Origin: Macrotis lagotis
Taxonomy: Eukaryota > Chordata > Mammalia > Peramelemorphia > Peramelidae
Assembly: GCF_037893015.1 (NCBI RefSeq)
Contig: NC_133658.1
Location: 885,184,477 to 885,248,476, forward strand
Direction: 5' to 3'
Length of the DNA: 64,000 nucleotides
The translations under genes and the position numbers were made by a program. Below are positions 44,524 through 45,039 of the stretch, in pieces. Each line of letters starts with the position of its first letter. The first letter of the stretch is position 1. The notes beneath the pieces were generated by a model, which saw only the letters and a program-made list of their open reading frames with translations, was not told the DNA's origin and did no database searches.

Positions 44524-45039
44524 ATGTTGGGAGCCAGGATCTCTAAGCTTTTTGACACAGTCACGGCAAGAAGACTCAGGGCAGTCACACTGCCTGATGG
44601 AACAACATTTCCTTCTTCAATATATATAGTTATTCCATGTATACCCATATTTATAGGTCTATTATTGATTGCAAAACTTACTCATCCTAATAGTGGAAGG
44701 ACTATAAAGGAAGGATTTCAGAGAAATTCCTTGAATAAAACAGATTGTGAACTCTATACAAATTTAACCAGACTGCCTCTCCCTGAGACATACAAAAGGC
44801 TTCAGCATTATAAAATCTTTAGAAGATACAGCACTGGGAGTTCCAGGGAGATGTCAGAATATATACAGGGAAACCAGGTACAAGATGGGTCAGATAGAAT
44901 TCCAGGGAAATTAACAGTTTTGCCCCCCTTATCATACACAGGAATATATGATAAAGATGGTGAGAGAATAGTTAGTATAGGTGACCAATATGTGAACTCT
45001 AACAGCCTTAGTTTATTGGGAAAGAATAAAAAGTCATAG
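44524..45039 (+). CDS. U3-encoded ORF in the solo LTR, type II membrane protein layout, superantigen-like by position
   Basis: 171 codons. The start codon spans the insertion boundary: its A is the last base of the target duplication and its TG are the first two LTR bases. Layout: a short basic N-terminal part (residues 1-30), one hydrophobic segment at about 33-50, then a polar domain with two N-glycosylation sequons (Asn71, Asn80) and a PLSYTG motif at 135-140. Start at the LTR edge, type II topology and glycosylated outer domain match what is known of the betaretroviral U3 superantigen gene sag. This frame is only about half of sag length and lacks the C-terminal region that determines T-cell receptor specificity. 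Homology is a hypothesis; expression from a solo LTR is unlikely. It could also be an unrelated U3 frame. Confidence 0.45.
   Translation: MLGARISKLFDTVTARRLRAVTLPDGTTFPSSIYIVIPCIPIFIGLLLIAKLTHPNSGRTIKEGFQRNSLNKTDCELYTNLTRLPLPETYKRLQHYKIFRRYSTGSSREMSEYIQGNQVQDGSDRIPGKLTVLPPLSYTGIYDKDGERIVSIGDQYVNSNSLSLLGKNKKS

Follow-up and report, generated by a model that had tools for sequence, protein, structure and literature searches.

The 64-kb window analyzed here (the whole stretch of 64,000 nucleotides from Macrotis lagotis, C1:885184477-885248476 in a searched genome of 3.66 Gb and 607 contigs) contains a solo long terminal repeat (LTR) that very probably derives from an endogenous betaretrovirus resembling mouse mammary tumor virus (MMTV; type B), and whose U3 part carries a 171-codon open frame homologous to the viral superantigen gene sag. 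We regard this frame as short and decaying, most likely an inert passenger; judged from its sequence, it is a homolog and a fossil of sag and not a complete Sag. Endogenous sag fossils are already known, and the host group in which this one resides is probably new: we know of no report of a marsupial sag, and none appears in the titles and abstract openings of the papers listed by targeted searches of open-licence PubMed Central. The relic implies that viruses of this kind reached the ancestors of this animal, too, and the SINE and L1 types suggest a marsupial host.

The frame opens at position 44524 with an ATG composed of the last A of the left GGAAAA target-site duplication and the TG that begins the LTR, closes with a stop codon at 45037-45039, and encodes a product of 171 residues, in agreement with the initial annotation. 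Since it lies at the 5′ end of the LTR, we place it in U3. Its length exceeds what shuffled sequence would give: among 5000 dinucleotide shuffles of the LTR, read on both strands, no ATG frame of at least 171 codons was obtained (longest, 162), and an edge-starting open run of at least 171 codons was absent from all 20,000 shuffles. The membrane-protein features that had been described were also recovered. Residues 1-32 carry a net charge of +3, the most hydrophobic 19-residue segment of the frame spans residues 32-50 (mean Kyte-Doolittle value 2.55; earlier placed at about 33-50), and two N-glycosylation sequons follow at N71 and N80. Hydropathy, charge, and sequons are compatible with the predicted layout of a type II membrane glycoprotein, the orientation being suggested by the basic N-terminus. 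The PLSYTG motif, also reported earlier, is present within the longer PPLSYTGIY, and the pattern YTGxY occurs a single time in the six-frame translation of the whole window.

Comparison of the full frame with Pfam returned the MMTV Sag family, PF01054, as the sole family at E ≤ 10 (E 9.5e-6, 26.2 bits, curated cut-off 25), and queries trimmed to residues 80-171 (E 2.8e-6, 27.9 bits) or 121-171 (E 1.6e-6, 28.7 bits) scored higher still. None of eight control proteins, comprising seven shuffles and the reversed protein, matched PF01054; two of the eight weakly matched other Pfam families (E 0.13 and 0.2). The resemblance to Sag, originally drawn from layout and a short motif, thereby acquires a significant and specific profile match above the curated cut-off. 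A chance frame was rejected on the LTR shuffles together with these profile controls.

In a genome-wide search with PF01054, in which 150 of 1464 candidates were scored, 72 matches were obtained at E ≤ 1e-3, all of them over the cut-off and scoring up to 38.8 bits. No match came from 14 control genomes, which is a weak control, the identity of these genomes being unstated. All 72 scored matches sit in LTRs that can be aligned with the window LTR (939-1225 nt, 75-92% identity); xTGxY occurs within the matched part in 69 of them. A DNA search, in which 40 of 1834 first-look candidates were scored, yielded the window copy and 39 siblings at 91-93% identity, and the same frame from the same edge is present in siblings. 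The resulting sample is biased, the 39 siblings having been picked by nearness to the window and the 72 by their retained domain. When clustered at a distance of 0.12, the 112 sequences formed groups of 59 (including the window copy), 44, and 7, with two singletons, and YTGIY is found at the aligned position in 99 of the 112 copies. As far as scored, the Sag domain belongs to one LTR family with several sub-families. Of the other 111 copies, a 6-bp duplication borders 59 (one mismatch allowed), and 74 show TG at the aligned 5′ edge together with CA at the aligned 3′ edge. Two copies 28 kb apart, L096 and L116 (C9:622678604 and 622650094), have an identical 25-base 5′ flank, which suggests that the LTR was copied by host duplication; L084 and L085 (C1:916839678 and 916948600), alike in their PF01054 and alignment scores, may be a second such case.

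Several observations count against the Sag assignment. Searched alone, residues 1-120 matched no Pfam family; the PF01054 match spans only about 45 residues, with a full-frame score near the cut-off; a single-sequence AlphaFold model of the frame was uninformative (mean predicted local distance difference test score, pLDDT, 37.6); and no relative of the frame was found in the protein and contig collections, where none of 119 candidates reached E ≤ 10. Pattern matches to the frame in these collections numbered 22 and 57, none of which was confirmed, and no homolog was found in PDB or NCBIfam. The lack of relatives is expected because the collections hold few animal viruses, and the 119-candidate search was limited to proteins of at most 1.75 times the query length, which excludes the 320-residue Sag. 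A full-length score that barely clears its cut-off (26.2 versus 25 bits) would also suit a chance frame with a chance profile match in an unrelated betaretroviral LTR, and frames of more than 97 residues do occur in betaretrovirus-like HML LTRs, according to the available text of PMC2664473. However, we consider such a coincidence extremely unlikely: the family had been predicted beforehand, the eight controls were negative, the 72 scored genome matches, up to 38.8 bits, all fall within one LTR family, and the position, start, predicted topology, and motif of the frame fit Sag as well.

The virus that gave rise to the family can be characterized through one of its members. L037 and L031 are the LTR pair of a single provirus: L037 is followed by a primer-binding-site-like sequence, which occurs after 5 of the 111 copies and is presumably of the tRNA-Lys type, and a purine tract precedes L031. 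No other copy is closer to L031 than L037, the two differing at 16 of 1065 sites (1.5%). With the average mammalian rate that PMC4667437 uses, 2.2e-9 per site and year, which is not specific to this host, this divergence corresponds to about 3.4 million years. Seven of the eight open pieces of this provirus match Pfam, together covering Gag_p10 (E 5.2e-13), Gag_p24, the p24 C-terminal domain, zinc knuckles, dUTPase (E 4.4e-8), RVP (E 4.7e-28), and GP41 (E 1.8e-23); the eighth has no Pfam match, and no pol domain was found among the eight. The PDB sequences closest to the protease piece are 3sqf, 6s1v, and 1nso, which we take to be Mason-Pfizer monkey virus protease. By its domain content, the virus of this family is a betaretrovirus with type B features, and the proposed membership in the Sag family is borne out by the PF01054 match, by the sibling frames that begin at the same edge, and by the betaretroviral domains of the family's provirus.

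The start codon of the window frame has a different origin from that of a proviral sag. Where the 5′ edge is clean, in 33 siblings, TG is preceded by C in 10, T in 10, G in 9, and A in 4, and an edge ATG is formed in only 4 of the 39 siblings; it is rare because the base before the TG of a solo LTR is host DNA. In the window LTR the A of the ATG is luck; a provirus takes it from its polypurine tract. The proviral 3′ LTR, L031, is preceded by AAAAGGGGGAAA, which forms the ATG, and its frame breaks after 95 codons; in L044, a similar purine tract is found and the TG is lost. Purine runs of at least 11 bases at the edge were seen in 2 of the 111 copies; the other one, L028, has a target duplication, and its run is a chance case.

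Turning to the end of the frame, the initial annotation had called the window copy at best a truncated relative of Sag. It is indeed short and without the long C-terminal tail, but the truncation is not peculiar to this copy: counted from the edge, exactly 171 codons are open in 19 of the 39 siblings and 174 in one, with an earlier stop in the other 19. Aligned codon 172 is a stop in 57 of the 59 copies of the window's group, and by native count the distance from the motif tyrosine to the end is 34 codons in 43 of these 59, and 44 codons in 24 of 44 and 4 of 7 copies of the other groups. In the second group, 35 of the 44 copies have one base more than the window copy within the final third of the frame, which fits their different tails; past-motif stop counts in the window's phase were left out for this sub-family, whose reading is shifted there by one base. 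The short C-terminal end is inherited within the sub-family. Many related LTRs and a provirus are present in the same genome, but a long frame is not the common form of any group observed: 10 of the 112 copies are open for at least 70 codons past the motif, and the longest open stretch through the domain is 205 codons by direct count (up to 221 by the search program's measure).

A few frames of the family end much earlier. In five copies (L029, L034, L043, L047, and L052) the frame ends after 35 codons; an inherited break was rejected, as these copies are not each other's nearest neighbors, and recurrent slippage in a TA-rich tract is probably responsible. Also rejected was the idea that the second sub-family had inherited a stop around codon 125: aligned codons 124-126 contain none, and the early stops of this sub-family most likely stem from frame offsets. 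Two overlapping downstream pieces in another frame, of 39-40 residues, matched no Pfam family.

Variation among the copies shows no sign of protein-level constraint on the frame, and it is for this reason that we consider sag most likely a passenger. In the 40 closest copies, the private differences comprise 148 replacement, 51 silent, and 5 stop changes, and the shared ones 42, 20, and 1, respectively (Fisher p 0.33). Across the 112 sequences, shared variants are spread evenly over the three codon positions (55/49/47, p 0.71); this test, weakened by recurrent mutation, was repeated with fixed differences, of which 15 replacement and 2 silent separate the groups of 59 and 44 inside the frame. 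To the points already raised against our reading it should be added that the sites are modest in number and that fixed differences are sparser inside the frame, at 17 of 510 positions, than outside it, at 58 of about 580 LTR positions; weak selection may have acted. This contrast arises in part because of LTR positions 540-840 (about 45064-45364 of the window), just past the frame, where net between-group divergence is 0.12-0.33, versus at most 0.08 in the frame. The segment may mark the place where a variable Sag tail would lie, and a swap of U3 segments may explain the peak equally well.

These data also bear on the possibility that the short form, of 171 to about 181 codons, is itself a working product, namely a Sag that has the conserved T-cell receptor (TCR) motif domain, dispenses with the tail, and acts on host T cells. 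The recurrence of one end in the window's sub-family and of another in the other two groups implies that short forms were copied many times, YTGIY is kept at its aligned position in most copies, and the frame has the smaller share of fixed differences. Yet those differences are not biased toward silent changes, the shared variants do not favor any codon position, the extra base in most copies of the second sub-family causes their tails to be read differently, 10 copies remain open well past the motif, and retrieval with PF01054 itself favors copies that keep the domain; we therefore find a working short Sag quite improbable and retain the passenger interpretation.

With 2.8% private divergence, the window copy has diverged further than any other of the 40, and yet its frame is open, as might be seen if the host had co-opted it, for example in defense against related viruses, as with the endogenous mouse Mtv sag; mouse Mtv copies mostly retain sag and lose other genes, according to the available text of PMC3026287 and PMC11998498. 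An open frame is, however, ordinary at such divergence. With a stop-making share of substitutions of about 0.033, the expected proportion of siblings escaping substitution stops is 0.78 on average, and 20 of the 39 siblings are open to codon 171 or beyond, which is below that value, as expected if insertions and deletions add to the loss. An open frame at the divergence of the window copy needs no selection, and the solo LTR has moreover been deprived of the upstream viral promoter and splice sites, all of which makes host co-option very improbable.

The element is recognized as a solo LTR inserted in an old L1 because its flanks rejoin: once the LTR and one copy of the duplication are removed in silico, they form a single ORF2-like frame, which we take to be that of L1. 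No second LTR copy was found by BLAST in the 64-kb window. Two further AATAAA hexamers lie within the region of the 44524-45039 frame, the hormone-response half-sites TGTTCT and AGAACA are absent from the LTR at 44525-45619, and an Rfam scan of the window gave no matches. The window LTR carries 22 nt that are absent from nearly all siblings (across the 39 siblings, 36 deletions of 22 nt were scored relative to the window copy), at a site past frame position 513 in the non-coding part of the LTR.

Table 1. Features of the solo LTR, its open frame, and its insertion site (window coordinates).
Feature	Position	Strand	Basis
Host L1 ORF2-like fossil, upstream flank	44301..44518	+	Frame read across site
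Left target-site duplication GGAAAA; final A is base 1 of the ATG	44519..44524	.	Edge inspection
Sag-like open frame, 171 codons plus stop, U3 part of LTR	44524..45039	+	Profile match, siblings
Solo LTR, 1095 bp, TG...CA ends	44525..45619	+	Edges and duplication read; 39 scored siblings at 91-93% identity
Predicted transmembrane segment, residues 32-50	44617..44673	+	Hydropathy only
N-glycosylation sequon NKT, residues 71-73	44734..44742	+	Sequence
N-glycosylation sequon NLT, residues 80-82	44761..44769	+	Sequence
PF01054 MMTV_SAg match, residues 122-165 (profile positions 44-88 of 92)	44887..45018	+	Pfam profile search
TGxY motif, TGIY, residues 139-142, inside PPLSYTGIY	44938..44949	+	Sequence
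Candidate polyadenylation signal AATAAA, about 145 bp before LTR end	45470..45475	+	Position only
Right target-site duplication GGAAAA	45620..45625	.	Edge inspection
Host L1 ORF2-like fossil, downstream flank	45626..45865	+	Frame read across site

The following history would account for the window copy. In the provirus, the sag ATG arose where the polypurine tract, by its last A, met the TG of the 3′ LTR, an arrangement seen in one family member with a broken frame. The usual end of the frame in this LTR family lies, according to sub-family, some 6 to 16 codons beyond the conserved domain, without the long variable tail of MMTV Sag, and sag was most likely a passenger while the family spread and decayed. 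The window copy has lost its internal region, presumably by recombination between LTRs. The splice acceptor that MMTV uses just ahead of the frame went with that region, and the window copy is most likely not expressed as Sag.

In MMTV, sag starts at the LTR edge, and Sag has a furin-type site. The window frame resembles the sag of MMTV and mouse Mtv in its place in the U3 of a long LTR, its edge start, its predicted type II layout, and its PF01054 domain with TGxY, and its LTR family is further likened to MMTV by a betaretroviral provirus with dUTPase. It differs in length (171 codons against the 320 residues of MMTV Sag), in being without the long variable C-terminal tail that interacts with V-beta, in its short matching region, and in having no RxKR-type site, its basic pairs being RR, KR, and KK only. 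The MMTV splice acceptor lies just upstream of the sag frame, as given in the available text of PMC3026287, and TGxY is called crucial for TCR activation in that of PMC4667437 (Aswad and Katzourakis 2015). The latter text describes endogenous sag-like sequences from 20 mammals, in at least 20 lineages and eight orders, mostly as solo LTRs and falling into clades A and B, with a shortlist rule of at least 80% of the Sag conserved region aligned and at least 45% identity. Like the window element, the fossils described there are for the most part solo LTRs that MMTV-like betaretroviruses left behind; about 80 of their residues can be aligned, and TGxY is conserved among them. They differ in a one-ratio omega of 0.289 across lineages, compared with no constraint among the copies of one family here. 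The terms marsupial, opossum, Monodelphis, Sarcophilus, wallaby, and Macropus are absent from its main text, figures and supplements aside. The same text lists Sag-like genes of rhadinoviruses (Saimirine herpesvirus 2, Ateline herpesvirus 3, and Rodent herpesvirus Peru) as homologs of retroviral sag; unlike the window frame, these were captured from retroviruses by herpesviruses and lie outside LTRs. Among marsupial viruses, MEBrv 4 is a marsupial endogenous betaretrovirus clade that groups with MMTV in the available text of PMC11334065, and is alike in being a type B betaretrovirus with stop codons in its core genes. The MEBrv clades with a stated LTR length have 281-469 nt, far below the 1095 bp found here, with none stated for MEBrv 4 in that text, and sag or superantigen is not mentioned in its main text. 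Opossum betaretroviral LTRs were tested in PMC2664473, in whose available text sag is mentioned only for MMTV. The available text of PMC9231498, on koala retroviruses, does not mention sag, and PMC2736999 deals with KERV.

Elsewhere in the window, two overlapping long frames of 266 and 230 residues at 13285-14120 cover a G-rich minisatellite (units including 37 and 43 bp), and neither matched Pfam at E ≤ 1. On the forward strand at 33822-36637, frames of 131, 106, and 178 residues resemble the ORF2 of a younger L1; the 131-residue frame gave an endonuclease match below the cut-off (E 9.5e-4), and the 178-residue frame had no Pfam match at E ≤ 1.

A profile match in a single fossil could be dismissed; the same cannot be said of 72 scored matches that all fall within one LTR family. 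The Sag-carrying retroviruses so far comprise one living virus, MMTV, and fossils in mammalian genomes, according to the available text of PMC4667437, and a large LTR family with the Sag domain in an apparent marsupial genome, where one insertion or more dates, by LTR divergence, to just a few million years ago, would widen this host range. The family offers a second place to ask when sag arose, how its variable tail was gained and lost, and if the variable stretch that follows the frame is a remnant of that tail. A further idea, which we hold to be improbable, is that over the last few million years marsupials were infected by MMTV-like betaretroviruses equipped with sag, and that this lineage carried a naturally short Sag with only the conserved TCR-motif domain. 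If true, this naturally short Sag would be a minimal viral superantigen in mammals outside the placentals, where sag is unreported within the literature searched.
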